A stretch of 36,247 nt of DNA, taken from positions 1 through 36,247 of the forward strand of contig JAAVBM010000080.1 of the NCBI GenBank assembly GCA_014803505.1. Direction: 5' to 3'. The position numbers and the translations under genes were made by a program. The notes under the pieces were generated by a model. That model had not been told where the DNA came from. It made no database searches and saw nothing but the letters and a program-made list of their open reading frames with translations. The stretch's first letter is position 1. The number at the start of each line of letters is the position of its first letter. The DNA is from a bacterium. GTDB taxonomy: Bacteria; Cyanobacteriota; Vampirovibrionia; Gastranaerophilales; Gastranaerophilaceae. Below, in pieces: positions 7,686 to 29,790 of the stretch.

Positions 7686-7713
7686 TATAAACGTTTTTTT
7701 TGATTCAAAATTG
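7686..7713 (-). promoter_or_regulatory. shared promoter-like element upstream of the 765-residue gene
   Basis: On the minus strand CAATTT (7708-7713), exactly 16 nt including an A run, then TTTATA (7686-7691), 56 nt before the ATG. The same two boxes with the same spacing precede the genes at 16029, 17928 and 22018. Confidence 0.55.
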
Positions 7714-7779
7714 ATTAATGTTTATAGAAATTGTATATACTTTATATTTAAAATCCTTATATTACACGTATTTGAGATG

Positions 7780-7795
7780 TGTTAAGAAATGTTAA
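7780..7795 (+). promoter_or_regulatory. candidate regulator site, PhoB/OmpR-type direct repeat
   Basis: TGTTAAGAAATGTTAA matches 14 of 16 bases of the element at 17765-17782. Read on the minus strand it is TTAACAT, three bases, then TTAACAC: direct repeats about 11 bp apart, the phasing used by OmpR/PhoB-family regulators. Confidence 0.4.
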
Positions 7796-7819
7796 CAATT
7801 TCTGTTTTAATCCCTTTCA

Positions 7820-7836
7820 AACCGAATAATTCGGTT
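7820..7836. promoter_or_regulatory. perfect 17-bp palindrome, operator-like
   Basis: AACCGAAT-A-ATTCGGTT is an exact 8-1-8 inverted repeat. No T run follows, so it is more like a dimeric repressor site than a terminator. Which of the two divergent genes it serves is unknown. Confidence 0.4.
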
Positions 7837-8077
7837 ACGTTGGCTTACCTCTTACACTGATTGAAGTCATCTTTTACCTTTCTACATGTCCTTAGTAACC
7901 TTTACACGCATGTGTATTCGGCATTTGCGGCTTACGACTTTAATAAAAATTTTGTTAAATGGGGGTTGTTTTGTTGAAATGTACTCATAATGCTTGTTTT
8001 AAGTGCTTTACAAAACTTTATAAAAGATGTTAGTTTTATGTTTTTTGTTGATTTTCTCTGTTGTAGCATTTTTGTAT

Positions 8078-8083
8078 TATAAT
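8078..8083 (+). promoter_or_regulatory. -10 box of mnmE, leaderless layout
   Basis: A consensus TATAAT ends 6 nt before the mnmE ATG at 8090 and only T residues lie between. No clear -35 is seen at 16-18 bp. The position implies a leaderless transcript. Confidence 0.45.
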
Positions 8084-8089
8084 TTTTTT

Positions 8090-9439
8090 ATGAATATTTT
8101 ACAGGAATTTGATACTATAGCTGCTATTTCAACACCACTTGGTACAGGTGGAGTCGGAGTTATTCGTATATCCGGCGAAAAAAGCTTTGATATAGCTCTT
8201 AGAATATCTGACAGACAAACTCTTCCGGCCGGAAAAATTTGTCACGGATGGATTTTGGATGATGATAATAAAATTGATGAAGTTGTCATTCTGCCTTTTA
8301 AAAATCCTAACAGTTATACAGGCGAAGATGTTGTTGAGATTCAATGTCACGGCGGGGTTAATGTTGTAAGAAATATTCTGGATGTTGTGTTGAGAAATGG
8401 TGCAAGAATTGCTGAGCGTGGGGAGTTTACCAAACGAGCTTTTCTTAATAAAAAATTAGATCTTTCGCAAGCCGAAGCTGTTGATGATTTGATTCATGCT
8501 AAAACTTCTAATTTTGCCATTCAGTCAGCAAAGAATTTGTCAGGAGTCTTGGCTGCTAAAATTAACGAAATCAAGGGTGACATATTCGAAACTACTTCTC
8601 GAATTGTTGCGGGGATAGATTTTCCTGAAGATGTTGCTGAGCCTGAATATTCATATCTTATTGAACGTTTTGGCAACTCTTTGCGTGAAATTAACAGAAT
8701 TTTAGATTGTGCAAAATCTTCAGATATTCTTCGTCAGGGGATAAAAGTTGCGATTGTCGGCAGACCTAATGTCGGTAAATCTTCTCTTTTTAATGCTCTT
8801 TTGAATTTGGATAGGGCAATTGTTACCGATATTGCGGGTACAACAAGAGATATTATCAAAGAAAATCTTGATCTCGGTGTTGCTGTAACGCTTATTGATA
8901 CTGCAGGTATCCGAGAAGATGAAAATATTGATAAGGTCGAAGAAATCGGTATTGAATATTCTAAACAATCTGCTCAGGATGCAGATTTAGTATTGTTCTT
9001 ATATGATTCGAATTCAGGATTAACTGAAGAAGATCGCGAAATTTTCGACATAATAAAAGATAAAACCCATATCGTTGTCGCTAATAAAGTGGATTTATTG
9101 AATGGAAATGTGTTGCAAGAAGAATTCCAAAATACTGTTAAGCTTTCTACTTATTCAAAAGACGGGTTAGATGTGTTAAAATCTCGTATGAAAGAGATTG
9201 TATGTGATTTCTCTCCTGAAGATACAGAATTCATTACAAATAAGCGTCAGCAATCTTGCTTGCTTCGTTGTAAAGAAAGTTTAGAGCGTGCATTATTTGC
9301 AGCTGAACAAGAAGAACTTCAAGACATGATATATATTGATTTGAAATCAGCATTACTTTCACTTGATGAAATTACAGGTGAAGTTATTACTGATGATATT
9401 TTAAATAATATTTTTGACCATTTCTGTATTGGTAAATAG
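8090..9439 (+). CDS. mnmE: tRNA uridine-5-carboxymethylaminomethyl modification GTPase MnmE
   Basis: With MnmG it modifies wobble U34 of several tRNAs. The protein is 449 residues, normal for the family. The N-terminal formyl-THF-binding domain begins DTIAAISTPLGTGGVGVIR. The inserted G domain shows GRPNVGKSSLFNAL, the GTT switch in DIAGTTRD, DTAG and NKVD. It ends with the catalytic FCIGK. The frame extends 21 codons upstream to 8027, but that extra sequence is hydrophobic and absent from the family, and a TATAAT sits inside it, so I start at 8090. No Shine-Dalgarno sequence. It converges with the EF-hand gene, with only 2 nt between stop codons and no terminator. Confidence 0.96.
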   Translation: MNILQEFDTIAAISTPLGTGGVGVIRISGEKSFDIALRISDRQTLPAGKICHGWILDDDNKIDEVVILPFKNPNSYTGEDVVEIQCHGGVNVVRNILDVVLRNGARIAERGEFTKRAFLNKKLDLSQAEAVDDLIHAKTSNFAIQSAKNLSGVLAAKINEIKGDIFETTSRIVAGIDFPEDVAEPEYSYLIERFGNSLREINRILDCAKSSDILRQGIKVAIVGRPNVGKSSLFNALLNLDRAIVTDIAGTTRDIIKENLDLGVAVTLIDTAGIREDENIDKVEEIGIEYSKQSAQDADLVLFLYDSNSGLTEEDREIFDIIKDKTHIVVANKVDLLNGNVLQEEFQNTVKLSTYSKDGLDVLKSRMKEIVCDFSPEDTEFITNKRQQSCLLRCKESLERALFAAEQEELQDMIYIDLKSALLSLDEITGEVITDDILNNIFDHFCIGK

Positions 9440-9441
9440 TT

Positions 9442-9993
9442 TTACGAATTGAAGTTTTTATATTTGTAGCTTAAAATACTATAGCTTGAAACATCTGTTG
9501 ATGCGTTTTCGTTACCATAGAATAAAGACATATTCGTAGCTTTTTTATAGTTTTCTTCATCAATTTTTTCTTGCATGTTACAAGAGTGGGTAAATGCGGT
9601 GATTTCAGCACTGGTAATGCGTCCGTCGTGGTTTGTGTCCATTTCGTCAAAATTTTCCAGAATCTTTGCAACCATATCGCTTGAATAAGCTCCTGATGCT
9701 GCAAGTTGAGATAATTCTGTTCTGGATACACCAGATGTTGAAATAGTATTGGTTAAATTGTTCATTTCGTCAGCACTTATTATGCCGTCACCATCTTTGT
9801 CCAGTGTTGAAAAATTGTTTTGTAGGTATGATGCAAAAGATTGATTCAATGTGAGATAGTTGGTTGAATCGTTTCTGGCCGCAGTAATATTTTTGTATGT
9901 AACACCGTCTTCCGGATATAATGATGCTAAATATGCGTATGTGTTTGTTAAATTTGATGATATATTTGAAATTATTGATGAACCTGCTGCCAT
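9442..9993 (-). CDS. EF-hand calcium-binding protein
   Basis: 183 residues with two canonical EF-hand loops: DKDGDGIISADE (65-76) and DTNHDGRITSAE (119-130), each with acidic or oxygen ligands at positions 1, 3, 5 and 12 and Gly at 6. It probably binds Ca2+. There is no signal peptide; the N-terminus is Ser/Asn-rich (MAAGSSIISNISSNLTN), like other hypotheticals in this window. AAGGA lies about 9 nt before the ATG and a strong promoter lies about 40 nt upstream, divergent from the tsaC promoter. The partner or target is unknown. Confidence 0.87.
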   Translation of the reverse strand: MAAGSSIISNISSNLTNTYAYLASLYPEDGVTYKNITAARNDSTNYLTLNQSFASYLQNNFSTLDKDGDGIISADEMNNLTNTISTSGVSRTELSQLAASGAYSSDMVAKILENFDEMDTNHDGRITSAEITAFTHSCNMQEKIDEENYKKATNMSLFYGNENASTDVSSYSILSYKYKNFNS

Positions 9994-10032
9994 TCGATAA
10001 ATCCTTCTGTTTCTTTACTCTACCTTATTTTA

Positions 10033-10060
10033 ATAATAATGATGTTTCTAAAAATGTCAA
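10033..10060 (-). promoter_or_regulatory. sigma70 promoter of the EF-hand gene
   Basis: On the minus strand: consensus -35 TTGACA (10055-10060), 16-bp spacer, -10 TATTAT (10033-10038). It is back to back with the tsaC promoter. Confidence 0.65.
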
Positions 10061-10074
10061 TATAGGATTAAAAC

Positions 10075-10104
10075 TTGCTCTGTAGTGTTATGATTTGGTA
10101 TAAT
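10075..10104 (+). promoter_or_regulatory. sigma70 promoter of tsaC
   Basis: -35 TTGCTC (10075-10080), 18-bp spacer, extended -10 TGGTATAAT (TATAAT at 10099-10104). The short leader carries GAGGGAAG just before the ATG. Confidence 0.72.
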
Positions 10105-10121
10105 GTCCATGTGAGGGAAGT

Positions 10122-10706
10122 ATGTTAAAAAATAAACAAGAAATAATTGATGTTTTACAAAACGATGGCGTAATTGCTTATGTTACAGATACAGTCTGGG
10201 GGCTTGGATGCTTACCTGAAAGTGAAAAAGCTGTAAAAAAAATATATGAAATCAAAAAAAGAGAAGCTCAAAAACCGCTTATTCTAATGTCAAATGAGGT
10301 TTACAATCTGTTTGATTATGTAAAACCAATACCAAAAACAGGTCAGATATTAATAAAGAAGTATTTCCCTGGAGCGTTGACAATCGTTACTGAAAAAAGT
10401 GACAAAACTCCTGATTATATTACTTCAGGAATGCAAACTGTCGGAATTCGTATTCCTGATAATAAAGTATTTCAATCCATATGTGAAATTATTCCAAAGC
10501 ATGTTCTAGCAACGACAAGTGCTAATCTTTCTCATCAACCCTCTGCTAAAACTTATGAACAAGCATTGGAAAATATGACAGGCTTGGCAGATCTTATAAT
10601 TGAGGATTATGGATACCCCGCAAAAGGCTTGGAGTCTACTGTTGCCGGTGTTGTTGGGGATGAATTGCGTGTGTTTAGGCAAGGTGCAATATCTTTAGAT
10701 ATATAA
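10122..10706 (+). CDS. tsaC: L-threonylcarbamoyladenylate synthase (TsaC/Sua5/YrdC family)
   Basis: Makes threonylcarbamoyl-AMP from Thr, bicarbonate and ATP, the first step of t6A37 tRNA modification. 194 residues, so the short TsaC type without the extra Sua5 C-terminal domain. Family signatures: TVWGLGC near the N-terminus, KKREAQKPLILM (substrate-binding KR...KP), GIRIPDN, and TSANLSHQPSAKT (S/T-x-N nucleotide site). GAGGGAAG gives a good ribosome site. A membrane glycosyltransferase gene follows after 56 nt. Confidence 0.93.
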   Translation: MLKNKQEIIDVLQNDGVIAYVTDTVWGLGCLPESEKAVKKIYEIKKREAQKPLILMSNEVYNLFDYVKPIPKTGQILIKKYFPGALTIVTEKSDKTPDYITSGMQTVGIRIPDNKVFQSICEIIPKHVLATTSANLSHQPSAKTYEQALENMTGLADLIIEDYGYPAKGLESTVAGVVGDELRVFRQGAISLDI

Positions 10707-10762
10707 AAAATTTGATATTTATTTAACTTTTTTATAATATATGTATAAAAGAGGATAAAATT

Positions 10763-12328
10763 ATGGAATTTATATTATATCTGGTTTATTTATATGTTCT
10801 TATTTATACATTATATCTTTTAGTATTGTCTATTAGAAATTTGAAAGATAAACCATTTCATATAGAAAAAAAATATTCAAGATACGATGATGTTAAAAAG
10901 AACTTTGCAGTAATAATATATTGTCATAATCATAAAGATTGTTTATATTCTCTTGTTGAAGAGTTGAAAATGCAAGATTATCCACTTGCGAACTTTAAAG
11001 TTTATGCAGTGTTGGATGATTGTAATGACGGTTCTGAAAAGATTTTTGAACATGATAGTTTCGTTCATGTATTGAATATTCAAGATGTAGGACTTCTTGG
11101 TAAAAATAAAGCTGTATCTATGCTTTTGGATGAATTACAGAAAGATAGCACAATTGATGCATATGTATTTATTGATGGTACAAGAAGTATTTCTTACGAT
11201 TTTCTTACAATTGCAAATGTTTCTATAAATAAACATGATGCAATAACAGGTGAATTGAATATTGATAGAGAAAATCTCGATATTATTGATAGAATTAAAG
11301 CTGTTTATAAAAAATATCAAGCAAACTTTTTTAAACGTAGTCGAACTCTTTTGGGGCTTGCTACAAATGTGGATTCAGGTCTTTTTATTATAAAAAAATC
11401 TGTTTTAGATGAATTAGACGGTATAAATTTTAAAGATATTAATTCGGAATTAGAATTTAGTTTATTATTGTCGCAAGTCGGTCATAAGTGTGTTTATAAT
11501 CCAAATATTCAATCTTACATATTAGGGCAGGATTGTTTGTTTAAATATCCCAAATTGACAAAGAAATTTAGATTATTAAAAAATAATTTTAAAAATTTAA
11601 AAACTTTGAATTTTGGCTTTATAGAACATATATGTTCGTTGTTAAATCCTAATTGTTGTACACTTATTGCTGCATATGCGTTGTTGATTTTTTACTCTTA
11701 TAACTGGCCGTTTTTAGTGAAATGTAATGTTGTTGTGTTTACTGCAATATTATTGATTGCGGTATTTGGAATGAGTCTTGTTAATGCAAAATTGAATGGT
11801 AAAGAAATTAGTTTATTGCTGTTTTATCCACTCTATTCAGTTTGTCATATAATAAAAAACTTCCCGCCTGTTAAATTTTTACTAAAAAAAATAGGGGCTA
11901 ATCCGGATAAAGAGATAGATAAACTCCCTATTGACGTTATGGTTCAAACAAAACATGGTGAAAGAAGTTGTAAGTTAGAATTTATATCAACAGAAAACGG
12001 ATTATCAAGAATTAGATTTATTTATAAAAATAAAAAATATACAACGTCAACGCATTTAAGAATGATTGATGCTTTACAACAATTAAAATCAAAGATGGAT
12101 GATTATGGACTTATTTTGAAGATTTGCAGTTGTTGTTCAAAATTTTCATCTTGTGTAGATGGAACTACTAACATGTTAAAAGGGCAGTGTCATAATGATT
12201 ATCCTAGCCCGCGTCTTAATGAACCAAAACCAACATTGGTTTGGAATTCTTGTTCTTGTTTTGAAGCTGCAAAAATTAATAGTTTTATAGAAGAAATAGC
12301 GCAAGAAGTTGTTAATCAAAATGATTAA
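10763..12328 (+). CDS. membrane glycosyltransferase, GT2-like, with Cys-rich C-terminal domain
   Basis: 521 residues. An N-terminal membrane helix (1-24), a GT-A-type domain (about 45-260; VIIYCHNH, VLDDCNDGS, GKNKA), then two or three membrane helices (about 290-360) give the layout of cellulose-synthase-like GT2 enzymes. The usual DxD is FIDGT, lacking the second Asp, and no QxxRW is visible, so activity is uncertain. The last 70 residues hold seven cysteines (455, 457, 458, 464, 476, 497, 499; CSCC, KGQC and SCSC) that could bind zinc or an Fe-S cluster, an unusual addition. AAGAGGATAAAATT precedes the ATG. Donor and acceptor are unknown. Confidence 0.8.
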   Translation: MEFILYLVYLYVLIYTLYLLVLSIRNLKDKPFHIEKKYSRYDDVKKNFAVIIYCHNHKDCLYSLVEELKMQDYPLANFKVYAVLDDCNDGSEKIFEHDSFVHVLNIQDVGLLGKNKAVSMLLDELQKDSTIDAYVFIDGTRSISYDFLTIANVSINKHDAITGELNIDRENLDIIDRIKAVYKKYQANFFKRSRTLLGLATNVDSGLFIIKKSVLDELDGINFKDINSELEFSLLLSQVGHKCVYNPNIQSYILGQDCLFKYPKLTKKFRLLKNNFKNLKTLNFGFIEHICSLLNPNCCTLIAAYALLIFYSYNWPFLVKCNVVVFTAILLIAVFGMSLVNAKLNGKEISLLLFYPLYSVCHIIKNFPPVKFLLKKIGANPDKEIDKLPIDVMVQTKHGERSCKLEFISTENGLSRIRFIYKNKKYTTSTHLRMIDALQQLKSKMDDYGLILKICSCCSKFSSCVDGTTNMLKGQCHNDYPSPRLNEPKPTLVWNSCSCFEAAKINSFIEEIAQEVVNQND

Positions 12329-12335
12329 GCGTGAT

Positions 12336-12364
12336 TTGATACGCTAAAACTTGTGGAGTATAAT
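12336..12364 (+). promoter_or_regulatory. consensus sigma70 promoter, leaderless layout
   Basis: -35 TTGATA (12336-12341), 17-bp spacer, -10 TATAAT (12359-12364), then 7 nt to the ATG at 12372. No Shine-Dalgarno sequence lies in between, so the transcript should start at or one base before the start codon. Confidence 0.75.
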
Positions 12365-12371
12365 TATAAAT

Positions 12372-13532
12372 ATGAAGAAGATTTTAAGTTTTATATTATC
12401 GTTAATGATTTTTGTAACGAATTTTTCGCTGATTGGTCTTGCTGAGCCATTGAAGGGATCTGTTGTTGAAAATGATCAATTTCAGCAGACTCAAGAGGAA
12501 CTGTTTACCGGAAAGGTTGAATCTCTTAATAGAAAAGATGTTATAAATATGACGGTTTCTCAAGTTTTGGACTCTTCATTTTCAATTGAAGGTGATGAGT
12601 TTTTTGCAGAAGTAACATCTGATGTCTACGGAGATAAAGGTGTTATTATTCCAAAAGGAACAGTAGCTCATGGTTGCTTAAAAAATACTTCCGAGCCGGG
12701 AAGAGGTGGAAGAGAAGCTTCAATGACTTTATCTTTTGATTATTTGGTTACTCCGGACGGGCGCGAAATTCCAATCGAAGGAGAAATGACTACAAAACTT
12801 CATCCTGTTAAAACAGGGGCAAAAATATTGGCTCAAGATGTCGGATATACTGTTGCCGGAGGTGCTGTAGGCGGTTTGATGGCACTTAACTGGTTAGGAT
12901 TGGAAGCGGCTATAGCTTCTCAAGGTTATACACTTGCCGGAGGTGCTGCACTTGGTGGTGTTGCAGGGCTTGGTGTTGCTCTTATAAGAAAAGGTAATCA
13001 TGTTCTAATTGCCCCAGGTGATGAAATTAAAGTTAAAATAAATACTCAGGTTGATTTGCCGGTTTATAAAGAAGAAGCTCTTAAACAAGAGGAATTGTTA
13101 TATGATGGCTTAAATATAAGTATCAATGATATTAAACATGAAAAAGATCCTTTTGGTGAAGTTAACACAATTACTTTAACTGTGTTAATTTCAAATATGT
13201 CTGATAAAACATTGTCAGGTTTTGATATGGTTCTTGTAAATGACTATAATGCAAAATTTAGTCCATCAATTTTTGGTGATACAAAATTGATGTTCCGTCA
13301 GATCAAACCTGGTGATAAATTGGTCGCAAATGTATCTTTTGCTGTAGATAATATTAATAGAAAATTCTGGTTGACCTTTTTCGACAGAAGAAGTGGCGAT
13401 GCTATTACAAAGATTTCAGTAGATAATGCGTATCGTTCTATTCCTGAAAAGTCTAAAAAGAAAAATCAAAAAATGAAGACTTCAAAAAATAATTTTAAAA
13501 AAGATGATGATTTCATGAATATGGATTTTTAA
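12372..13532 (+). CDS. exported protein with glycine-zipper segment
   Basis: 386 residues, no family firmly recognised. MKKILSFILSLMIFVTNFSL is a signal peptide with probable cleavage near GLAEP. The following domain (PKGTVAHGCLKNTSEPGRGG) recalls the beta-barrel domain of TrbI/VirB10-like proteins, a weak resemblance. Two Gly/Ala-rich hydrophobic segments (VAGGAVGGLMAL and LAGGAALGGVAGLGVAL) are glycine zippers that could span or oligomerise in the outer membrane. The C-terminal third resembles a beta-sandwich, and the tail is Lys-rich, then acidic. A TTG seven codons upstream (12351) is in frame, but it overlaps the -10 box, so the ATG is preferred. Confidence 0.83.
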   Translation: MKKILSFILSLMIFVTNFSLIGLAEPLKGSVVENDQFQQTQEELFTGKVESLNRKDVINMTVSQVLDSSFSIEGDEFFAEVTSDVYGDKGVIIPKGTVAHGCLKNTSEPGRGGREASMTLSFDYLVTPDGREIPIEGEMTTKLHPVKTGAKILAQDVGYTVAGGAVGGLMALNWLGLEAAIASQGYTLAGGAALGGVAGLGVALIRKGNHVLIAPGDEIKVKINTQVDLPVYKEEALKQEELLYDGLNISINDIKHEKDPFGEVNTITLTVLISNMSDKTLSGFDMVLVNDYNAKFSPSIFGDTKLMFRQIKPGDKLVANVSFAVDNINRKFWLTFFDRRSGDAITKISVDNAYRSIPEKSKKKNQKMKTSKNNFKKDDDFMNMDF

Positions 13533-13595
13533 GGCTTTCGCAGGATTTGTTTTGTACGATAAATTGAAGTATTGTAAAGTTTTCAAGGAAAGCTC

Positions 13596-13632
13596 TTGTA
13601 AAATACAATCTTTATATTACAATTATAGTAAT
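13596..13632 (+). promoter_or_regulatory. promoter and candidate operator of the BlaI-type operon
   Basis: -35 TTGTAA (13596-13601), 16-bp spacer, -10 TACAAT (13618-13623). An inverted repeat ATTAC-N7-GTAAT (13616-13632) covers the -10 and start region, where BlaI-type repressors bind to block their own promoter. The half-site TTAC/GTAA resembles BlaI/MecI half-sites, but the spacing differs. Confidence 0.5.
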
Positions 13633-13652
13633 ATTAGTAATAGGAGGAAAAT

Positions 13653-13997
13653 ATGGTTTGTGGATCTCTGGAAATTGAAATTTTAAATACTTTTTGGAAC
13701 TTGACAGAAGCAGATGAAGATGTTGATATTTCAATTCAGGATGTAGTGGATAACCTTTCTCAAAATGGTATTGAAAGAGCTTATACTACAATTAAAACCG
13801 TAATGGATCGTTTGGTTTCTAAGAGTATTTTGGTCAGATATAAGGTTGGTAAAAAGTTCTTCTATAAAACAACAATGGATAAAAGAGAAATGGCTCTTGA
13901 TATGCTTCATGAGTTTACAAATAATTTCTTTAATGGGAATTATGCTGATATGATGCATTTTGTTGAACATGAAATGGATGAACTTCTTGTAAAATAG
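13653..13997 (+). CDS. BlaI/MecI/CopY-family transcriptional repressor
   Basis: 114 residues forming a winged helix followed by a dimerisation helix pair. Family features: LEIEILNTFW at the N-terminus, the helix pair VVDNLSQNGIERAYTTIKTV with the recognition helix, MDRLVSKSILVRYKVGKKFFYKT as wing, and a C-terminal helical half. Preceded by AGGAGG. In the classical system the partner is the BlaR1/MecR1 sensor protease; no such gene follows here. Instead two unknown genes form a tight operon with it (3-nt gap, then a 1-nt overlap). Probably autoregulated through the inverted repeat at 13616. Confidence 0.87.
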   Translation: MVCGSLEIEILNTFWNLTEADEDVDISIQDVVDNLSQNGIERAYTTIKTVMDRLVSKSILVRYKVGKKFFYKTTMDKREMALDMLHEFTNNFFNGNYADMMHFVEHEMDELLVK

Positions 13998-14000
13998 TTT

Positions 14001-14381
14001 ATGCCTGCAGAAATAAATAACAGATATGTTGTTGCGAGGTTACTAAAACTTGTTCGCATTGGAGAGTTGTCAGTAAGAGAAGCTTTGTTGAAATATCCTA
14101 AAGATACTGAAGATGAAAGTCTTATTGCAGCTTATCATGCGCTTATTCATTATGAAGCCGATGAAGATTTGAGACATCGTGATAGTTTATACAAAGAAGA
14201 ACAAGATGACTATATTGAATTTTTGTCGTATATTCTAGAACGAGGAGAGGATTTGCCTGAAAATATAATTCTTAATTATAAGAAATTTTATGATACGGCA
14301 CCAATTCTTCATAAAGATAATCCGCAGGGCTTTTTCAAAAGTTTTTGGAAAATTTTAAATATTGGAAAAAGGAGAGATTGA
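14001..14381 (+). CDS. small hypothetical protein of the BlaI-type operon
   Basis: 126 residues, not recognised. Mostly helical and charged (VVARLLKLVRIGELSVREA, then YHALIHYEADEDLRHRD), cytosolic, no Cys. It starts 3 nt after the repressor stop with no clear ribosome site of its own, so it is probably translationally coupled. Its stop codon overlaps the next ATG by one base (TGATG). The context makes it a partner of the repressor or of the exported protein that follows. Confidence 0.78.
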   Translation: MPAEINNRYVVARLLKLVRIGELSVREALLKYPKDTEDESLIAAYHALIHYEADEDLRHRDSLYKEEQDDYIEFLSYILERGEDLPENIILNYKKFYDTAPILHKDNPQGFFKSFWKILNIGKRRD

Positions 14382-15427: not shown

Positions 15428-15434
15428 AAAAGTT

Positions 15435-15467
15435 AAAACGGAATTTCAAATCGAAATTCCGTTTTTT
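15435..15467 (+). terminator. intrinsic terminator of the BlaI-type operon
   Basis: A 13-bp perfect stem (15435-15447 with 15453-15465, core ACGGAATTTC) with a 5-nt loop is followed by T residues, 8 nt after the stop codon. Confidence 0.9.
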
Positions 15468-15553
15468 AATTATATTTATAATCCTTTTTTCGCATTTAAA
15501 CTTATCCTCAATACTTCATAATGGATATGGAAAAAGATGAAAGGAGTATCTGT

Positions 15554-15895
15554 ATGAAAAATGAAGAAGATAAAAAGACTATGAAAGAGAATATGCACGA
15601 AACTGCTGAAAAAGTAAAGGAAAAAGTGCATGAAGCAAAAGACAAAGTTGCCGAAAAGATTGATGAAACTAAGGAAAACTTGAAAAATGAGACAGAAAAA
15701 GTAAAAGAAAAGGCGCATGAGACAAAAGATAAGATTGCAGAAAAAATAGGTGAAACTAAAGAAAATATTAAGGAGGGTGCTGAAAAAGTAAAAGAAAAAG
15801 CTCACGAAACAAAAGATCGAATTGCAGAAAAGATAGACGAAAAGAAACAAGAAATGGAAGAAGAAAAAGAGCAGAATAAAAAACGCACTGCGTAA
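15554..15895 (+). CDS. repeat coiled-coil protein, LEA-like
   Basis: 113 residues, almost entirely Lys, Glu, Ala, Asp and Thr. Three tandem 29-residue repeats of the type EKVKEKAHETKDKIAEKI, then ETKEN, make an amphipathic helix as in LEA group 3 and apolipoprotein-like stress proteins. Hydrophilic, cytosolic, no signal. Such proteins protect membranes or proteins under desiccation or osmotic stress; that role here is inference. The frame opens at 15521, but AAAGGAG seven nt before the ATG at 15554 decides the start. Monocistronic, with terminators on both sides. Confidence 0.8.
   Translation: MKNEEDKKTMKENMHETAEKVKEKVHEAKDKVAEKIDETKENLKNETEKVKEKAHETKDKIAEKIGETKENIKEGAEKVKEKAHETKDRIAEKIDEKKQEMEEEKEQNKKRTA
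15608..15868 (+). repeat. three tandem 87-bp coding repeats
   Basis: Units begin at 15608, 15695 and 15782, each opening GAAAAAGTAAA(A/G)GAAAA. They differ at many third positions, so the duplication is not recent. They encode the 29-residue repeats of the LEA-like protein. Confidence 0.85.
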
Positions 15896-15900
15896 TCTCC

Positions 15901-15932
15901 GAAAAAGAGGCTAAATATAGCCTCTTTTTCAT
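15901..15932 (+). terminator. intrinsic terminator after the LEA-like gene
   Basis: A perfect 13-bp stem GAAAAAGAGGCTA (15901-15913 with 15918-15930) with loop AATA; the 3' arm contains the T run. Confidence 0.88.
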
Positions 15933-15944
15933 TGATGTTAACTT

Positions 15945-16000
15945 TTGTTAATAGGATTTGTTCTAATATAGGCAATATTTTTTCGCTAAAATTTTTTAAT
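15945..16000 (+). promoter_or_regulatory. shared promoter-like element upstream of the 173-residue gene
   Basis: CAATAT (15973-15978), exactly 16 nt, then TTTAAT (15995-16000), 29 nt before the ATG. This is the same layout as at 7686, 17859 and 21949. TTGTTAATAGGATTTG at 15945 weakly resembles the TTGTTAAGGAATGTAAA element of two other genes. Confidence 0.42.
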
Positions 16001-16028
16001 ATTATGTAACGGGAATTAAGGAGGAATT

Positions 16029-16550
16029 ATGATTTCTGGAGTTTCAAACAGTTCTAATACTGCTGAAGTTAGAAAAACTACATCGACTGCAAAATCAGCA
16101 ACTACTAATACTGTTAAAATCGGAAAAAGTAGTAATAATGGTGTTTCGAAAGCAAAGAAAGAAGCTGCTGAAAACTTAAAAATGCGAGTTCTTCAATTGT
16201 TAAATTTGAAAGATGATTTTTTAAAGGTTTCAGTTGAGGTTATAAATAATAAATCCTATGTCAAAATTTCAAGGCCTGCCAATGATAAACGTCGAACAGC
16301 TCAAAGACGAGAATTTTCAAATGGTGCTATTAAGGAAAAACTTGGTATTAAAAAAGGTGTTTTAAAGGCAAATAATGATTTAGTAGATGTAACCGGCTCA
16401 CCTAATCTGTCCGAATCTTATGGTGCAACTATTGAGCCGGGAAAATCTCTACTTATTCCTATTTCTGATTTAGGACAAGATTATCCTTGGTATAAGTTTG
16501 GGGCAAAAGATTTGAAAAACTATGCGAATAATTATTTACAGACAGAATAA
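16029..16550 (+). CDS. hypothetical protein, 173 residues
   Basis: Function unknown. No signal peptide. The first 45 residues are low-complexity Ser/Thr/Asn/Lys (TTSTAKSATTNTVKIGKSS). The rest is a small alpha/beta domain with basic patches (RRTAQRREF) and a Tyr-rich C-terminus. AAGGAGG gives a strong ribosome site 5 nt before the ATG. It shares the promoter-like element of three other hypotheticals in the window. A disordered N-terminus on a leaderless small domain would fit a non-Sec exported protein, but that is speculation. Confidence 0.8.
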   Translation: MISGVSNSSNTAEVRKTTSTAKSATTNTVKIGKSSNNGVSKAKKEAAENLKMRVLQLLNLKDDFLKVSVEVINNKSYVKISRPANDKRRTAQRREFSNGAIKEKLGIKKGVLKANNDLVDVTGSPNLSESYGATIEPGKSLLIPISDLGQDYPWYKFGAKDLKNYANNYLQTE

Positions 16551-16572
16551 ATGTTTAAATATATTTTGGTGT

Positions 16573-16609
16573 AAAACAGATTAGAGTATAATCTCTAATC
16601 TGTTTTTTT
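16573..16609. terminator. bidirectional terminator overlapping the 3' end of the minus-strand gene
   Basis: A perfect 14-bp stem (16573-16586 with 16593-16606, core ACAGATTAGAG), 6-nt loop, T run on the plus strand and A run on the left. It ends the plus-strand gene at 16550. The minus-strand gene ends at 16595, so its last codons and stop lie in the hairpin. Confidence 0.88.
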
Positions 16610-16996
16610 AGTTAATGATAAAACGAATTCATTAAATGTTTTTAATTTTTCTGGAATATTTAGTTTTGCATCTTTTGTTTTTATCAGGTCTATTACAGAT
16701 TGAATAACACTCTCTTTGCTATGCTTTTTTGTTTTAAAACAAAAATTTTCCCACCCATCTTTTAGTTTTACTACTCCTAGTTCGATGTTGTATTCGCTGC
16801 TATAATAATTATTTGTAGGATTACTATAAATTAATGTGTCACTACCAATAGCTTCATTCTCTGCAATAGTTTTCTTTATTGATGGAGAATCTAGTACAGC
16901 TTCTAAAATTCGAGGTTCCCATTCGTTTACTTTTGGGAAAAATTTTACTCCATTGAAATTTTGATTATTGTTTTGTGTTATTGGATTTACTTGCAT
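16595..16996 (-). CDS. hypothetical protein with N-terminal NFxG motif
   Basis: 133 residues, function unknown. It opens MQVNPITQNNNQNFNGVKF, an Asn-rich stretch ending in NFNGVKF; the gene at 29349-29675 opens in the same style with NSVNFKGIQK. No signal peptide. The rest looks like a compact alpha/beta domain (ELGVVKLKDGWENFCFKT) and a Lys-rich helical tail. AAAGGA lies about 11 nt before the ATG, a rather long spacing. Its last codons lie in the terminator hairpin shared with the convergent neighbour. Confidence 0.78.
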   Translation of the reverse strand: MQVNPITQNNNQNFNGVKFFPKVNEWEPRILEAVLDSPSIKKTIAENEAIGSDTLIYSNPTNNYYSSEYNIELGVVKLKDGWENFCFKTKKHSKESVIQSVIDLIKTKDAKLNIPEKLKTFNEFVLSLTKKTD

Positions 16997-17106
16997 AATA
17001 TATATTCCTTTAATTTTTATGTTTCAGTATTATAGTTAGTCCTGAAAAGAAATAATTTTTAACAAGAGAATTATAGCAAGGTTTTATAAGGAGTTCAATA
17101 TTACAA

Positions 17107-17134
17107 TAAAAAAGAGATTGTTATAATCTCTTTT
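17107..17134 (-). terminator. intrinsic terminator after tRNA-Leu
   Basis: A 10-bp stem AAAAGAGATT (17110-17119 with 17125-17134) and 5-nt loop; on the minus strand it is followed by a T run. It begins 2 nt after the CCA end of the tRNA. Confidence 0.85.
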
Positions 17135-17135
17135 A

Positions 17136-17220
17136 TGGTGTCGAAGAAGGGGGTCGAACCCTCAAGGTGTTAACCACACGAACCTGAATCGTGCGCGTCT
17201 ACCAATTCCGCCACTTCGAC
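17136..17220 (-). tRNA. tRNA-Leu (anticodon CAG)
   Basis: 85 nt including an encoded CCA. Acceptor GTCGAAG pairs with CTTCGAC, discriminator A then CCA. The anticodon stem CACGA/TCGTG carries loop TTCAGGT, giving anticodon CAG, which reads CUG codons. A long variable arm (class II) precedes the T arm GAGGG-TTCGACC-CCCTT. The D arm has GGAATTGGTAGAC. Confidence 0.97.
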
Positions 17221-17324
17221 AAGTACTATTTAGTTTTTCGCGTCTTATTGCGGATGAGCTCTCGCTCCCTATCCTCAAAAGATACTTAATCTTTATCGTC
17301 GGCAGAGTGCCACTTCGACATATA
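17221..17324 (-). other. structured non-coding stretch 5' of tRNA-Leu
   Basis: 104 nt between an XRE-type gene and the tRNA, noticeably richer in G+C than the surroundings. On the minus strand it could fold into three hairpins: 17301-17311 (GGCA-3-TGCC), 17278-17294 (AAAGAT-5-ATCTTT) and 17252-17274 (GGAT/ATCC around GAGC-GAGA-GCTC, a GNRA tetraloop). It starts with a 12-bp exact copy of the tRNA 5' region (17309-17320 versus 17210-17221, GCCACTTCGACA). It could be a tRNA precursor leader, a tRNA duplication relic or an unknown small RNA. Confidence 0.45.
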
Positions 17325-17729
17325 TTACGATAATATTTGGAACGGACATTTTGTGCAATGCGCTTTTGGATGAAGTATTAAATTATCTTCTAAATCATAC
17401 ATTCTTGCAATTCTTGTATCTAAAGGCGCTCCACATTTTGGACATTTTAGTCCTCCGGCTCCATTTAAAATCAATTGTTTTAAACTCTCTATAATTTCAG
17501 GTGAAATTATGTCTGATGCAATGTCCTTTTCATATTTTTTGATTTCGTGAGGTTCACATTTTAAAGCTTTTGCTAATGCCTGTCTTACTGTAACCGATAA
17601 AAACAGTTCCTTACCAGCTTCTACTTCTTCTACAATTTCAACTGATATGTTTGCTGCAATTGCTAGTCCTTTTTGCGTTAAACCTAATTCGTTTCTTTTG
17701 TTTTGTATAAATCCTGCTAATGTTTTCAT
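17325..17729 (-). CDS. XRE-type HTH protein with C-terminal zinc ribbon
   Basis: 134 residues. The N-terminal helix-turn-helix (about 5-62; IQNKRNELGLTQKGLAIAA then ISVEIVEEVEAGK) is of the Cro/C1 type. The C-terminal 40 residues hold two CxxC pairs, CPKCGAPLD and CTKC, a zinc ribbon. It is probably a small DNA-binding regulator; the target is unknown. No Shine-Dalgarno sequence: an extended -10 lies 7 nt before the ATG, so the mRNA is probably leaderless. Downstream on the same strand come the structured stretch and tRNA-Leu with no terminator between, so read-through into the tRNA is possible. Confidence 0.84.
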   Translation of the reverse strand: MKTLAGFIQNKRNELGLTQKGLAIAANISVEIVEEVEAGKELFLSVTVRQALAKALKCEPHEIKKYEKDIASDIISPEIIESLKQLILNGAGGLKCPKCGAPLDTRIARMYDLEDNLILHPKAHCTKCPFQILS

Positions 17730-17736
17730 ACAAAAT

Positions 17737-17742
17737 ATGATA
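17737..17742 (-). promoter_or_regulatory. extended -10 box of the XRE-type gene, leaderless layout
   Basis: On the minus strand TGCTATCAT, an extended -10 (TATCAT at 17737-17742), then 7 nt to the ATG. No good -35, as is common with extended -10 promoters. Confidence 0.5.
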
Positions 17743-17764
17743 GCATAAATTCATTATATTTATA

Positions 17765-17886
17765 ATTGTTAAGGAATGTAAAGTAAATTTATTGCACTGA
17801 AAACCACTAAAATCAATACTTTTGTTTATTGCTGTTTAAAATTAATGATAAATGCATGCAATTTTTCGATTAAAAAATCTTTTATA
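17765..17886 (+). promoter_or_regulatory. shared regulatory module upstream of the 394-residue gene
   Basis: The upstream element ATTGTTAAGGAATGTAAA (17765-17782) matches 17 of 18 bases at 21914-21931. Read on the minus strand it is TTTACAT-TCC-TTAACA, direct repeats about 11 bp apart. The core boxes are CAATTT (17859-17864), exactly 16 nt, then TTTATA (17881-17886, part of TTTATATAAGT), 42 nt before the ATG, the same distance as at 22018. Confidence 0.55.
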
Positions 17887-17927
17887 TAAGTACGGGGAAC
17901 TAAAAATAAAGAAATGGGGAAAAAGTT

Positions 17928-19112
17928 ATGGCTGCAACAGTTCAATCATATGCAAATATACCGTTTTGGAATTCTTTGCCAATGATGTATACAAATTATG
18001 CAGGAGATACTCAAATTAGTACTATCGAGCCATATGACGGTTATAATATTCAATATGGTTTAAATCCGGTAGCTATGAGTTCTATAGGTAATTGTTTAGC
18101 TGCCCCTGCTTATTATGGAGGCGGTTCTGTAGAAATTCCTCCGGCTGCCATGGCTGCTGGTCGTGCTATGGCTGACTACTGTTTAGATAATATGACAAAA
18201 CAGAACTTTAATACTCATTTAAATAGTATTTCTCAAATGAAAATGCGTCTTAATTCAGAATTCCAAGATCCAAATAAAACTGAAGAACAACGTAATAAAA
18301 TTGAAGAAATGATAAAAAAACTTGATCAGCAAGCAGAAAAGCTTAAAGAAATAATGGAATCTACAGAGTTGGATTCTACGGGCAAGTATCAACAAGAAGA
18401 ACAACTTAGAATGGGTACTAATGTACTTATAAGAGAACTTCTAAAAGAACTTCAGGACATGAAAGCTAATTCAAATGCTGATTCTGTAGATGATGCTAAT
18501 AATGACGGTTCTGATAATGTAGGCAACGACGGTAATGCTAATAGTGCTGACGATGTTGACGGCTCTAATGATGCAGATAATGCTAATGGAGCTGATGACG
18601 ATGCAGATGTAGACTCTACTCAAAACAATAGCACAGTTGATAATTTTGATGTATCAACTAAGGCTGCAGTAGATCAATTATACGATGCAATGTATTGTTG
18701 GGGTACTGATGATCAAAAAATGGAAGAAGTATTAAACCTTGTAAATAAAGATAATGTTATGGATTTAATGTTAGCTTGGAATAAGTTCCATTCAGCAGAA
18801 AAAGGTGAATCTTTTATGGAAGCCTTTATGTGGGATGCTGATTCAGGATTCTTGTGCGCAGGCGGTCAAAAGGTTAAATATGGTAAACTAATTGCCAGAG
18901 CATTGCGTGATAAGGCTGAAGAACTTGGTGTCTATGATGAGTTAAGAAGCGATTTTGCTGCAATTGATAAAGAAATGGGCAGTATCTTCTATGTAAGTAA
19001 TGATGTTTATAAAAATTATGACAATATTATAAAAGTTATTGCTGAAAAAATGGGAAGTAAGTATGGTTCACCAACTTCTACTAAAGCTCCTGAATCAGAA
19101 GAAAACAAGTAA
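17928..19112 (+). CDS. hypothetical protein with acidic linker and annexin-like motif
   Basis: 394 residues, function unknown, no signal peptide. Residues 1-80 are Tyr/Pro/Gly/Asn-rich; 100-180 form charged helices (QRNKIEEMIKKLDQQAEKLK). Residues 181-238 are a low-complexity Asn/Asp/Ala linker (e.g. NNDGSDNVGNDGNANSADD). The C-terminal domain opens AAVDQLYDAMYCWGTDDQKM (246-265), which resembles the first part of an annexin repeat (LxxAMxGxGTDE), though the first Gly is Cys. With the acidic linker this hints at Ca2+ binding; it is only a motif-level likeness. AAATGGGGAAAAAG precedes the ATG. Ended by a hairpin at 19191. Confidence 0.82.
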   Translation: MAATVQSYANIPFWNSLPMMYTNYAGDTQISTIEPYDGYNIQYGLNPVAMSSIGNCLAAPAYYGGGSVEIPPAAMAAGRAMADYCLDNMTKQNFNTHLNSISQMKMRLNSEFQDPNKTEEQRNKIEEMIKKLDQQAEKLKEIMESTELDSTGKYQQEEQLRMGTNVLIRELLKELQDMKANSNADSVDDANNDGSDNVGNDGNANSADDVDGSNDADNANGADDDADVDSTQNNSTVDNFDVSTKAAVDQLYDAMYCWGTDDQKMEEVLNLVNKDNVMDLMLAWNKFHSAEKGESFMEAFMWDADSGFLCAGGQKVKYGKLIARALRDKAEELGVYDELRSDFAAIDKEMGSIFYVSNDVYKNYDNIIKVIAEKMGSKYGSPTSTKAPESEENK

Positions 19113-19190
19113 TAAAGATATTATAATTCCTCATATAAGAGAAATGTGAAAATATATCCTAAGGTTAGTAAAGTAGTGTAGAAATATTTG

Positions 19191-19221
19191 TCCTGCAAAA
19201 TTATTGCAGGACTTTTCTTTT
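19191..19221 (+). terminator. intrinsic terminator after the 394-residue gene
   Basis: Stem TCCTGCAA (19191-19198) with TTGCAGGA (19204-19211), loop AATTA, followed by CTTTTCTTTT. Confidence 0.88.
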
Positions 19222-19231
19222 GTGTAATCGG

Positions 19232-19286
19232 TGGTAAAATTGATGGCAAAATGCCTCGTCCGGCCGAGGACTTGATTTTTTTTTTT
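19232..19286 (+). promoter_or_regulatory. candidate rpsO leader: extended -10, hairpin and T11 run
   Basis: An extended -10 TGGTAAAAT (19232-19240) would start RNA near 19247. A GC-rich hairpin CCTCG-TCCGGC-CGAGG (19254-19269) follows, then eleven T (19276-19286), the form of an attenuator. A small alternative hairpin GGCA-AAA-TGCC (19245-19255) shares two bases with it. Ribosomal protein genes often have such autoregulatory leaders. Confidence 0.4.
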
Positions 19287-19314
19287 GACCATATTATTAT
19301 CACAAATGTAGAGT
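19285..19314 (+). promoter_or_regulatory. possible second promoter of rpsO
   Basis: -35 TTGACC (19285-19290), 18-bp spacer, -10 TAGAGT (19309-19314). This would give a transcript that bypasses the upstream hairpin. Confidence 0.4.
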
Positions 19315-19356
19315 GCTTACGCCAATAATCACTCAACAAAGAAAAGGATAACTAAT

Positions 19357-19626
19357 ATGCCAATTAACTTAAAAAACAAACAAGAAATTGTTAAAGAATT
19401 CGGAAAGAATGAACAAGACACAGGGTCAGCATCAGTACAAATTGCTATGATGACTAAAAAAATCAGTGAATTAACTGAACACTTAAAATCAAACAAAAAA
19501 GATTTCGCGACTAAAAGAGGTCTTTTGATGATGGTAGGTAAAAGAAAAAGATTACTTTCTTACGTTAAATCACAAAATCTTGACGAATACAGAGAATTAA
19601 TTAAAAAGTTAAAGATTAGAGGTTAA
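19357..19626 (+). CDS. rpsO: 30S ribosomal protein S15
   Basis: 89 residues, the normal length. S15 binds 16S rRNA helices 20-22 early in small-subunit assembly. Family signatures are TGSASVQIAMMTKKISELTEHL, with the rRNA-contacting RGLLMMVGKRKRLLSYVK stretch near the end. AAAGGA precedes the ATG. Followed closely by a strong terminator, so it is monocistronic here. In E. coli S15 represses its own mRNA; the leader hairpin upstream may serve a similar role. Confidence 0.98.
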   Translation: MPINLKNKQEIVKEFGKNEQDTGSASVQIAMMTKKISELTEHLKSNKKDFATKRGLLMMVGKRKRLLSYVKSQNLDEYRELIKKLKIRG

Positions 19627-19639
19627 TCTGAAAAAATTT

Positions 19640-19677
19640 AAGCGGCTGGCTTTTTTAAGAAAGTCAGCCGCTTTTAA
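19640..19677 (+). terminator. intrinsic terminator of rpsO
   Basis: A 14-bp stem (19640-19653 with 19660-19673, core AAGCGGCTG, one G-U pair), 6-nt loop, then TT. It lies between rpsO and hydF. Confidence 0.9.
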
Positions 19678-19690
19678 TATAGGGAGTTTT

Positions 19691-20887
19691 ATGAAAACAT
19701 TAAAATCAATGCGTTTGCATATCGGATTATTTGGAAAAACGAATGTTGGAAAGTCATCAGTTTTAAATAAAATAACTAATCAAGATGTTTCTATTGTATC
19801 TGATATTGCGGGTACGACGACTGATGTTGTTGAAAAATCAATGGAGCTATTGCCTGTTGGTCCTGTGAATTTCTTGGATACCGCCGGAATTGATGATAAG
19901 ACTGCTCTTTCTTCTGAAAGAATTGAAAAAACCATGAAGGTCTTAAATAGAACGGATGTAGGGGTTGTAATTTGTGATTTTAATGGTTTAGATGATTATG
20001 AATGGGCATTGATTGAAAAATTTAATGAACTTAAAATACCTTTTATTGTTTTAGTGAATAAAACTGATGTTAAGTCGATTGAGAATTCTGAGCTTGAACG
20101 TATTAAGTCTTTTACAGAGTATGTAATTACTACTTCTGCAAAAACTGATGACCAGTTGATATATAAGTTTAAAGAAACATTGGTAAAACTTCTTCCTGAT
20201 AGTTTTGTGAATTCACCTAAAATAGCAGGAGATTTAGTGCCTGAAAAAAGTACTGTAATTTTGGTTATACCGATAGATAAAGAGGCACCTAAAGGAAGAA
20301 TTATTTTACCTCAGGTTCAGACGTTGAGAGATTTGTTGGATAGTAATTGTGTAACGATTGCAGTTAAGGAAACAGAGTTGAAAGATGCGATAGATAACTT
20401 GAAGGTTCCACCATCTCTTGTTATAACTGATTCTCAGGCTTTTAAGAAAGTTTCGGAAATTGTACCTGATAATATTGCGCTAACATCATTTTCAATTCTT
20501 TTTGCCAGATTAAAAGGTGATTTAAATGCTTTTGTAGAAGGTGCTACGGCAATCGAAAATCTTAGGGATGGTGACAAAGTTTTAATATTAGAAAGTTGTA
20601 CACATCATGCAATTGACGATGATATTGGAAGGGTTAAAATTCCGAGGTTACTTAAACAAAAAACAGGAAAGAACTTGGTTATAGAAAATATTTCAGGTCA
20701 TGATTTTCCTGATATTTCTGATTATAAATTGATTATTCATTGTGGTGCTTGTATGACAAATCGCCGCGAGGTTCTATCAAGAATATTAATTGCTAATCAA
20801 AAGAATGTTCCAATAACAAATTATGGTATTGCAATTTCATATTGTTTAGGCATATTGCCTCGTGCGTTGAAAATTTTTGAAGTATAA
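19691..20887 (+). CDS. hydF: [FeFe]-hydrogenase H-cluster maturation GTPase HydF
   Basis: HydF is the scaffold on which HydE and HydG build the 2Fe subcluster before transfer to HydA. 398 residues, normal. The N-terminal Era-like GTPase domain has LFGKTNVGKSSVLNK, DIAGTTTD, DTAG and NKTD. The C-terminal cluster-binding domain has the conserved CTHHAIDDDIGR and, about 50 residues later, HCGACM, together giving the CxH...HCxxC [4Fe-4S] ligand set. AGGGAG precedes the ATG. It implies an [FeFe] hydrogenase and hydE/hydG elsewhere in the genome, hence H2-evolving fermentation. A glycosyltransferase gene follows immediately. Confidence 0.95.
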   Translation: MKTLKSMRLHIGLFGKTNVGKSSVLNKITNQDVSIVSDIAGTTTDVVEKSMELLPVGPVNFLDTAGIDDKTALSSERIEKTMKVLNRTDVGVVICDFNGLDDYEWALIEKFNELKIPFIVLVNKTDVKSIENSELERIKSFTEYVITTSAKTDDQLIYKFKETLVKLLPDSFVNSPKIAGDLVPEKSTVILVIPIDKEAPKGRIILPQVQTLRDLLDSNCVTIAVKETELKDAIDNLKVPPSLVITDSQAFKKVSEIVPDNIALTSFSILFARLKGDLNAFVEGATAIENLRDGDKVLILESCTHHAIDDDIGRVKIPRLLKQKTGKNLVIENISGHDFPDISDYKLIIHCGACMTNRREVLSRILIANQKNVPITNYGIAISYCLGILPRALKIFEV

Positions 20888-20894
20888 TAAATAT

Positions 20895-21890
20895 ATGAGT
20901 GGAAATAAGAATATATTGGCTATAAATTTCGGTGGAATCGGAGATGAAATATTTTTTCTTCCGACACTTATTTCTTTACGAAAAGAGTTTCCAAATTCGA
21001 AAATTACTCTTGCCTTGGAACCAAGAAGTAAGAGTGTAAAAGATTTAACAGATGTAATTGATGAGCTTTTGTTGATTGATCCTAAGGGGCGCCGTAAATA
21101 TTTTGAAATGCTAAGACTTTTATTTGAAGCTCGTAGAGGAAAATATGATATTGTAGTTTCTTCCGGTGGGAATAAGTTGATAAGTATTTTACTGTTTTTG
21201 ACCGGTATAAAGGTTCGCTGCGGTTATGATACAGGAAAGTTGAGTAAAATTCTTTTGACCAACCCAATGCCTTTGAATAAAAATCAATATGCTTGCAAAA
21301 TGTATCATGACCTTATTCGAGATTTGACAAAATATAACACAGAACTTCCGGAAGTAAACATAAATCGAAAAGAAAAAATTTCTAATTCTGTTTTAATCCA
21401 TCCCGGAGTTAGTAAGTTAAGTGTTCAGAAAAAATGTATTAAAACGATTACTCCTCAAGTTTGGGCAAAAACTATTGATTTACTTGTTGCAGAAGGTAAA
21501 AAGGTTATGTTAGTTGGCGGACCTGATGATAAAGAATGTATTGAAACAATTCTTGAAAATGTAAGAACTCATAATTTTGAAAATCTATATGGGACAACTA
21601 AAAATCTTAAAGAGTTAGGAGAATTGATTTCATCTGCTGAAAAATTCTTATGTTCAGATTCAGCACCATTGCATGTTGCAGTTGCTTTGGGCGTTAAGAC
21701 TTATGTAATATTTGGTCCTACTGATGATAATGCTCTTATCCCCAAAAATGGTAATGTTATCGCAATAAAAGCTAATGATAAATGTGAATTGAAACCTTGT
21801 TTGTGGGCAAGACGTCAAACAACTTGTGATAATCTTGATTGTTTGAATATTACAGCATCTCAAATTGTATCTGTTTTGTTGGGTTCATAG
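20895..21890 (+). CDS. glycosyltransferase family 9 (heptosyltransferase-like)
   Basis: 331 residues. GT9 enzymes transfer heptose or related sugars from ADP-activated donors to lipopolysaccharide core. The N-terminus NILAINFGGIGDEIFFLPTL carries the GDxxxxxP motif of the family. The C-terminal half has VLIHPGVS, LVGGPDDKE, SAEKFLCSDSAPLHVAVALG and a Cys-rich end (CELKPCLWARRQTTCDNLDC) like WaaF-type proteins. A TTG start 18 nt upstream (20877), inside hydF, is possible, but the ATG at 20895 starts right at the conserved domain. It follows hydF by 7 nt, so the two are probably cotranscribed, though no functional link is evident. It suggests a diderm envelope. Confidence 0.88.
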   Translation: MSGNKNILAINFGGIGDEIFFLPTLISLRKEFPNSKITLALEPRSKSVKDLTDVIDELLLIDPKGRRKYFEMLRLLFEARRGKYDIVVSSGGNKLISILLFLTGIKVRCGYDTGKLSKILLTNPMPLNKNQYACKMYHDLIRDLTKYNTELPEVNINRKEKISNSVLIHPGVSKLSVQKKCIKTITPQVWAKTIDLLVAEGKKVMLVGGPDDKECIETILENVRTHNFENLYGTTKNLKELGELISSAEKFLCSDSAPLHVAVALGVKTYVIFGPTDDNALIPKNGNVIAIKANDKCELKPCLWARRQTTCDNLDCLNITASQIVSVLLGS

Positions 21891-21913
21891 CCTCTGTTTA
21901 TAAGCTTTTTTCT

Positions 21914-21976
21914 ATTGTTACGGAATGTAAATAAATGTGCTTATTGTGCAATTTCACACAAAAAAAATACTTTATA
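21914..21976 (+). promoter_or_regulatory. shared regulatory module upstream of the 194-residue gene
   Basis: ATTGTTACGGAATGTAAA (21914-21931) differs from the element at 17765 by one base in 18. CAATTT (21949-21954), exactly 16 nt with an A run, then TTTATA (21971-21976, inside TTTATATAAGT), 42 nt before the ATG. The TGCAATTT and TTTATATAAGT blocks are identical to those at 17857-17891. Confidence 0.58.
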
Positions 21977-29675: not shown

Positions 29676-29790
29676 TGTATCACCTTACTTTCAGAAAATT
29701 ATACGTTTCTCTATCATCATGTTGGTTTTTTGTTAGAAAACCCCTAAATAATATTTTTTGCTACTTTTTGATAAAAAAAATTACAAAAAT

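Follow-up and report, generated by a model that had tools for sequence, protein, structure and literature searches.

The 36,247-nt stretch analysed here (positions 1 to 36,247 of contig JAAVBM010000080.1, hereafter the window) belongs to the genome assembly GCA_014803505.1 of a bacterium of the family Gastranaerophilaceae (Cyanobacteriota; Vampirovibrionia; Gastranaerophilales), which comprises 2.26 Mb in 128 contigs, the window being contig 80. Four of its genes encode proteins of 765 amino acids (aa) (5333..7630, minus strand), 173 aa (16029..16550, plus strand), 394 aa (17928..19112, plus strand) and 194 aa (22018..22602, plus strand), for none of which a Pfam family was found at E ≤ 0.001; an earlier note, made from the sequence alone, had described them as lacking known domains. 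The same note had placed before all four genes a common pair of promoter-like boxes, CAATWT and TTTAWA, exactly 16 nt apart. Three of the copies are exact: 7686..7713 (minus strand) before the 765-aa gene, 17859..17886 (plus strand) before the 394-aa gene and 21949..21976 (plus strand) before the 194-aa gene, with E-values of 1.8e-6, 3.4e-9 and 5.8e-10, respectively, over 41,846 bases for the profile described below. The fourth, at 15973..16000 (plus strand) before the 173-aa gene, reads CAATAT-N16-TTTAAT and thus deviates from the pattern by one mismatch, in the second box; its E-value is 0.012 over the same number of bases and 0.86 genome-wide, and single weak sites such as this one could be of chance origin. 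The second box is separated from the ATG by 28–55 nt (29–56 nt in the earlier note). The exact pattern occurs in the window three times against 0.41 expected, a number reached by two of 100 shuffled sequences, and 16 times against 9.7 expected when one mismatch is allowed. The pattern TTGNNN-17-TATAAT, counted irrespective of gene positions, has five matches in the window against 1.58 expected.

A scan of the whole genome gave 45 exact copies of CAATWT-N16-TTTAWA, as compared with 19 for the reversed pattern. Sorted by reading, 21 of the 45 lie inside open frames of at least 198 codons and look like chance occurrences, 20 are intergenic and four are neither; used by itself, the short pattern therefore detects sites poorly. 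The 20 intergenic copies have in common a longer core, GCAATTTTT-N8-AAAATACTTTATATAWATGTAAGGGA. An extended pattern tried first contained a base too many and picked up other sequences along with true sites (36 matches vs 21 for its reversed form), and it was replaced by a profile of 52 nt built from 26 sites of this genome. The gap-free alignment of these 26 sites consists of GCAATTTTT, a variable stretch, AAAAATAC, TTTATATA and ATGTA.GG, and in no register does TTTATATA match the final T of TATAAT. The profile has 93 matches in its own genome at E ≤ 10, of which 32 remain at E ≤ 0.002, made up of 25 of the training sites and seven new ones; the non-circular test of the profile lies in the genomes of relatives.

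All of 40 genomes (the genome itself, 24 of the same genus and 15 of the same order) match the profile R1 at E ≤ 1, with a best match per genome of 1.4e-4 or better. When 194 genomes of the phylum were scanned and the best 30 candidates per genome were scored, each of the 85 genomes of the same family had 15 to at least 30 matches at E ≤ 0.01, whereas only seven of the 109 others had a match, a single marginal one each (E = 0.004–0.01). In six sister families, 15 of 15 genomes carry 2–16 matches at E ≤ 0.001. The consensus of 87 sites from relatives (69 loci) is tAgGCAATTTTTtAa.a.AAAAATACTTTATATAtATGTAAGGGAaA, in which the TTTATA positions are conserved at 98–100% and GGG at 86, 75 and 70%; as these sites were selected by the profile, the conservation is partly so by construction. 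In 53 of the 87 sites, an ATG with a Shine-Dalgarno sequence and an open reading frame (ORF) of at least 40 aa follows 15–60 nt past TTTATA, while on the control side (the other strand, behind CAATTT) such an ATG follows in one of the 87. In 21 of the 87 sites no ATG of this type was found within 250 nt, some of these sites being at the ends of the stretches. Strong copies of the motif at L140 and L130, which carry a CAATTATATA variant, are not closely followed by an ORF of normal size and possibly precede small RNAs. Two homologues of the 194-aa protein came to light through motif-retrieved loci: one, also of 194 aa, in G038 (L137, same order; 38% identity), which is preceded at the equivalent position by the same promoter, and one in G101 (54%), with a motif match upstream. 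Judged by these comparisons, the promoter class is real and common to the order Gastranaerophilales, and its core, which differs from the housekeeping type, is conserved before scattered genes. No description of this promoter class was found in the accessible portions of the open-access literature. A viral origin was considered and rejected; P0004 has no relative in viral contigs and one relative in the genome collection.

The genes behind the motif encode proteins with few recognizable features. Pfam searches of 40 downstream proteins from this genome and its relatives did not reveal a common domain as their theme, and gave only scattered matches: ribbon-helix-helix in two proteins, and YkuD, CHAP (below the cut-off), an EDR1-type peptidase and NolX in one each. 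By a crude rule, applied to regulon ORFs of at least 35 aa and control ORFs of at least 200 aa, a Sec-like N-terminus occurs in none of 28 ORFs behind the motif in this genome as compared with 18 of 131 other ORFs; the 28 ORFs are 27 genes (L065 and L098 are two cuts of one), and the 173-aa protein, the core score of which is too low, is not among them. By this rule, the 765-, 394- and 194-aa proteins of the window are free of a Sec-like N-terminus. In the 18 regulon ORFs of at least 100 aa, asparagine and serine together make up 21% of the first 30 residues and glutamate 1.9%, against 13% and 7.1%, respectively, in other ORFs. Many of the strongest sites belong to small genes, namely those of 54–57 aa of the MRNDYEM type and those for 62-aa ribbon-helix-helix proteins, which are often adjacent with a promoter copy each. 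Rows of such small genes (MRNDYEM type, ITVKEY type and ribbon-helix-helix), again with one promoter copy per gene, were seen at L113, L115, L118 and L121. A 277-aa regulon protein (L020:637-1467, contig C52) resembles ADP-ribosyltransferase folds by eye, and a Pfam search of it gives no match at all. The order-wide promoter class and the lack of Sec-like N-termini behind it support the dedicated regulon of mostly undescribed proteins that the earlier note had suggested.

Upstream of the core lies a second element, which had been missed before: a direct repeat with a period of 10 bp, TGTWAH-N4-TGTWAH. It is present at 10 or more of its 12 positions in 107 of 130 sites from this genome and its relatives. 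In shuffled windows the share is 30%, and in a further 141 windows upstream of other genes it is 23%; of the 12 periods tried, 10 was the best. The gap between the repeat and CAATTT is mostly 17–20 or 27–30 nt, that is, two classes one helical turn apart. These spacings, which were picked after the period results had been seen, are found in 20 of 36 sites of this genome (mean 1.3 and maximum 7 in 1000 shuffles) and in 63 of 94 sites of relatives (mean 3.0 and maximum 8 in 300 shuffles); as with the repeat and consensus counts, many of the sites are orthologues or paralogues of one another and hence are not independent.

The window contains five exact repeats, four of which, all on the plus strand, precede the four promoter sites by no more than 100 nt; repeats with one mismatch are about as frequent there as expected by chance (22 vs 17.5). 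Those at 15936..15951 and 21916..21931, which lie 21 and 17 nt upstream of their cores, have the usual spacing or one adjacent to it. At the 394-aa gene the exact repeat (17767..17782) has an unusual distance of 76 nt, and a degenerate repeat, TGTTTA-N4-TGTTTA (17823..17838, plus strand), was recognized by eye 20 nt upstream of the core, which is the usual spacing. The repeat at 7780..7795, on the strand opposite to the 7713 core and 66 nt ahead of it, is likewise unusually spaced, and its role is doubtful. The fifth exact repeat (29780-29795, minus strand) is located ahead of an uncharacterized 108-aa ORF (29349-29675) that has no core motif. At several regulon sites, TATATAC stretches stand between repeat and core; they are similar to GTATATAC-like palindromes.

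A phased upstream repeat suggests that an activator is at work. The most likely one is RpaB, which in true cyanobacteria is a regulator of light responses. Of the four OmpR-type regulators encoded in the genome, only L079 passes the cut-off of the RpaB equivalog NF045944 (360.6 vs 330 bits), the other three scoring 154–203 bits. According to excerpts of PMC9241938, the RpaB-binding element HLR1 consists of two (G/T)TTACA(T/A)(T/A) repeats 2 nt apart, and its location between -45 and -60 in atpT was judged to be compatible with activation. Read on the other strand, HLR1 is the repeat seen here, with the same 10-bp period. The genes rpaA, rpaB and nblS were already reported in Melainabacteria in 2013 and 2014, where another function was suggested for them in the passages available (PMC3787301, PMC4040986). 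RpaB probably binds the repeat, and its predicted effect would be activation.

Eight genes of the sigma70 family were found in the genome; by reading, they comprise SigA, three group-2-like, two group-3-like and two extracytoplasmic function (ECF)-like factors. Two of the eight, P0005 and P0006, were traced over relatives. Orthologues of P0005 (contig 127) were found at E ≤ 1e-74 in 84 of 85 genomes of the family, while the best match in the 109 others (5e-66) is at the level of SigA; in the sister families they exist in 13 of 15 genomes, with a fragment at a contig end in G038 and none in G027. In the tree, the P0005 clade has 43 rows and a support of 100/100, three P0005 matches (L201, L206 and L208) standing outside the tree. 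Both P0005 and P0006 group with SigA-like sigma factors and are without long N-termini. The -35 recognition helix of P0005 is GVTKECIRQ, compared with GVTRERIRQ in SigA, and is kept in 30 of 30 loci of the family; KECIRQ is also kept in 12 of 12 deeper P0005 loci among those listed, and further changes are located in region 2.4–3.0. In sigma factors of known structure, two of the changed residues make contact with the -35 box. The corresponding helix of P0006 is SKERIRQ. Repeated GTATATAC-like palindromes are located ahead of many P0005 genes and orthologues (L160-L189). An ECF origin of the core was considered, since GCAATTTTT resembles the ECF promoter box, GGAACTT, but was rejected, as the one ECF-like self-promoter recognized, by eye upstream of the L078 operon, is TGAACTTTTTT...CGTTA.

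What comparison of the sequences establishes is the promoter class, its order-wide spread, the phased repeat and the presence of RpaB. These features are best explained by one activator-dependent class of promoter, in which RpaB on an HLR1-type repeat acts together with a dedicated core and a clade-specific group-2 sigma, a combination for which belief and doubt are about equal. In this arrangement RpaB would bind the 10-bp direct repeat on one face of the helix, with the centre of the repeat about 60 or 70 bp ahead of the putative transcript start (all start sites are predicted ones), and would recruit RNA polymerase to the core, in which GCAATTTTT would be near -35 and ATACTTTATATA near -10 with an A tract between them. 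The polymerase would most likely carry the clade-specific group-2 sigma of the P0005 family, with its -35 recognition helix unlike that of SigA. As a result, proteins without Sec signals, mostly without assigned function, would be expressed together. It appears somewhat probable that the core is recognized by another sigma than SigA; P0005 is a tentative choice for this role, on which doubt slightly prevails.

Several observations weigh against this arrangement. On the side of the repeat, the other eleven periods give 42–60%, the period of 10 is found on the other strand in 63% of sites, so that its orientation is not sharply fixed, 22–23 of the 130 sites have no repeat at 10 of 12 positions, the spacing classes were a later choice, and the 7686 site has, by eye, no repeat at the usual spacing; moreover, similar repeats may also be targets of further OmpR-type regulators. 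On the side of the sigma factor, G219 and G027 have the motif and no orthologue of P0005, and P0006 (contig 52) is almost as good a fit, occurring in 84 of 85 genomes of the family and, by a tree with 40 further sigma loci, in 14 of 15 of the sister families; it is missing in G101 despite the motif there and was not seen in G039. The co-occurrence of motif and sigma does not represent independent events, because all of these genomes are of one clade. Autoregulation of the sigma, which is frequent in such regulons but no requirement, was rejected, as no motif was found within 350 nt upstream of the eight sigma genes (for L078, upstream of the operon). The earlier suggestion of an alternative sigma factor is plausible: two clade-specific group-2 sigmas are candidates, and each is absent from one or two motif-bearing genomes.

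A rival reading is that these are ordinary SigA promoters with a poor -35 box that are activated by RpaB or another OmpR-type regulator, the core then representing activator contacts and A-tract bending without any alternative sigma. Such an explanation accords with the phased repeat, with the lack of a sigma gene under the motif and with the genomes that lack P0005 or P0006; it is unlikely, however, for the core is too uniform for an activator alone (TTTATA at 98–100% in the relatives' sites, partly by construction) and is without the final T of TATAAT in any register. Conversely, an alternative sigma alone might define the regulon, with the repeat serving another regulator, either one of the other three OmpR-type proteins of the genome or one of the 62-aa ribbon-helix-helix proteins that are encoded behind copies of the motif. 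The availability of these regulators speaks for it. Against it stand the 10-bp period, which the repeat shares with HLR1, and the RpaB cut-off, which no regulator but L079 passes; we consider it slightly less likely than activated SigA promoters. A chance likeness of AT-rich boxes, suggested by the 21 of 45 exact copies inside long open frames and the 19 matches of the reversed pattern, is excluded for the class in all practical respects by its presence in 85 of 85 genomes of the family against seven of 109 others, by its distance to genes and by the phased repeat.

A more speculative idea concerns the fate of the products. A gene of the FHIPEP family is present in all of the 40 genomes, and that of the present genome encodes a 695-aa FlhA-like protein, which lies beside FliH, FliF and FliE and is below the cut-offs for both FlhA and SctV. 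The cluster (L284:13247-19116, contig C88) has the order FliE-FliF-(329 aa)-FliH-FlhA-like, and a further protein, with a better match to FlhA, exists in the sister families. A second FHIPEP protein of 492 aa (L287:10080-11558, contig C21) aligns with no more than the family's C-terminal half (310-653), and short forms were found in many relatives. Excerpts of PMC4040986 describe members with partial flagellar sets that are insufficient for a working flagellum. An export route for the regulon products is proposed because of their N-termini and of one partial NolX-type domain, found in a downstream protein of a sister family (L141; 31.0 bits, cut-off 26.1); the profile gives no motif match for the fliE-flhA operon. 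It is conceivable, if doubtful, that the clade-specific sigma and a repurposed RpaB run a large export regulon, in which proteins with asparagine- and serine-rich, glutamate-poor N-termini and without Sec signals would leave the cell by the flagellar-type apparatus retained by non-motile gut Melainabacteria since the loss of their flagella.

Two further observations concern other genes. A 183-aa protein in the window (9442-9993, minus strand) is likely to be an EF-hand protein; among calcium-binding families, XopAW gives a weak match to it (40.8 bits against a cut-off of 120). At L080 (contig C71), an ABC transporter and a two-component pair give the impression of being foreign and are possibly binned contamination, which is stated as 3.16% for this genome.

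The list of predicted RpaB targets, with sites at the level of single bases, makes the role of RpaB in non-photosynthetic Melainabacteria directly testable. It would also give a common label to many unannotated proteins of a widespread gut lineage, together with a candidate for a new sigma specificity.

Among known systems, the boxes of WalR/YycF and PhoB are also direct-repeat sites of OmpR-type regulators, and the half-site of WalR is similar to TGTWAH; their period, however, is 11 bp, in contrast to the 10 bp found here. In the HrpL regulon of Pseudomonas syringae, as in the present case, one promoter box precedes many genes that lie scattered and encode proteins lacking Sec signals, but HrpL is an ECF sigma that reads another box, and export is speculative here. 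P0005 and P0006 share with the cyanobacterial group-2 sigmas their likeness to SigA and their short N-termini. Those sigmas mostly use TATAAT-type promoters, as far as the excerpts of PMC2758279 go, while P0005 differs in its -35 helix (KECIRQ, not RERIRQ) and in region 2.4–3.0. The same excerpts connect RpaB with a group-2 sigma gene, rpoD3, which it represses through HLR1 (PMC2758279). Another parallel is the RpaB/HLR1 control of photosynthetic cyanobacteria, with which the present system shares a 10-bp repeat of HLR1 form upstream of the core, an orthologue of RpaB, and a repeat distance of the kind held suitable for activation in the passages of PMC9241938. In cyanobacteria, however, the targets are photosynthesis genes, whereas here the host is non-photosynthetic, the core is a special one confined to the order, and the genes behind it encode undescribed proteins.

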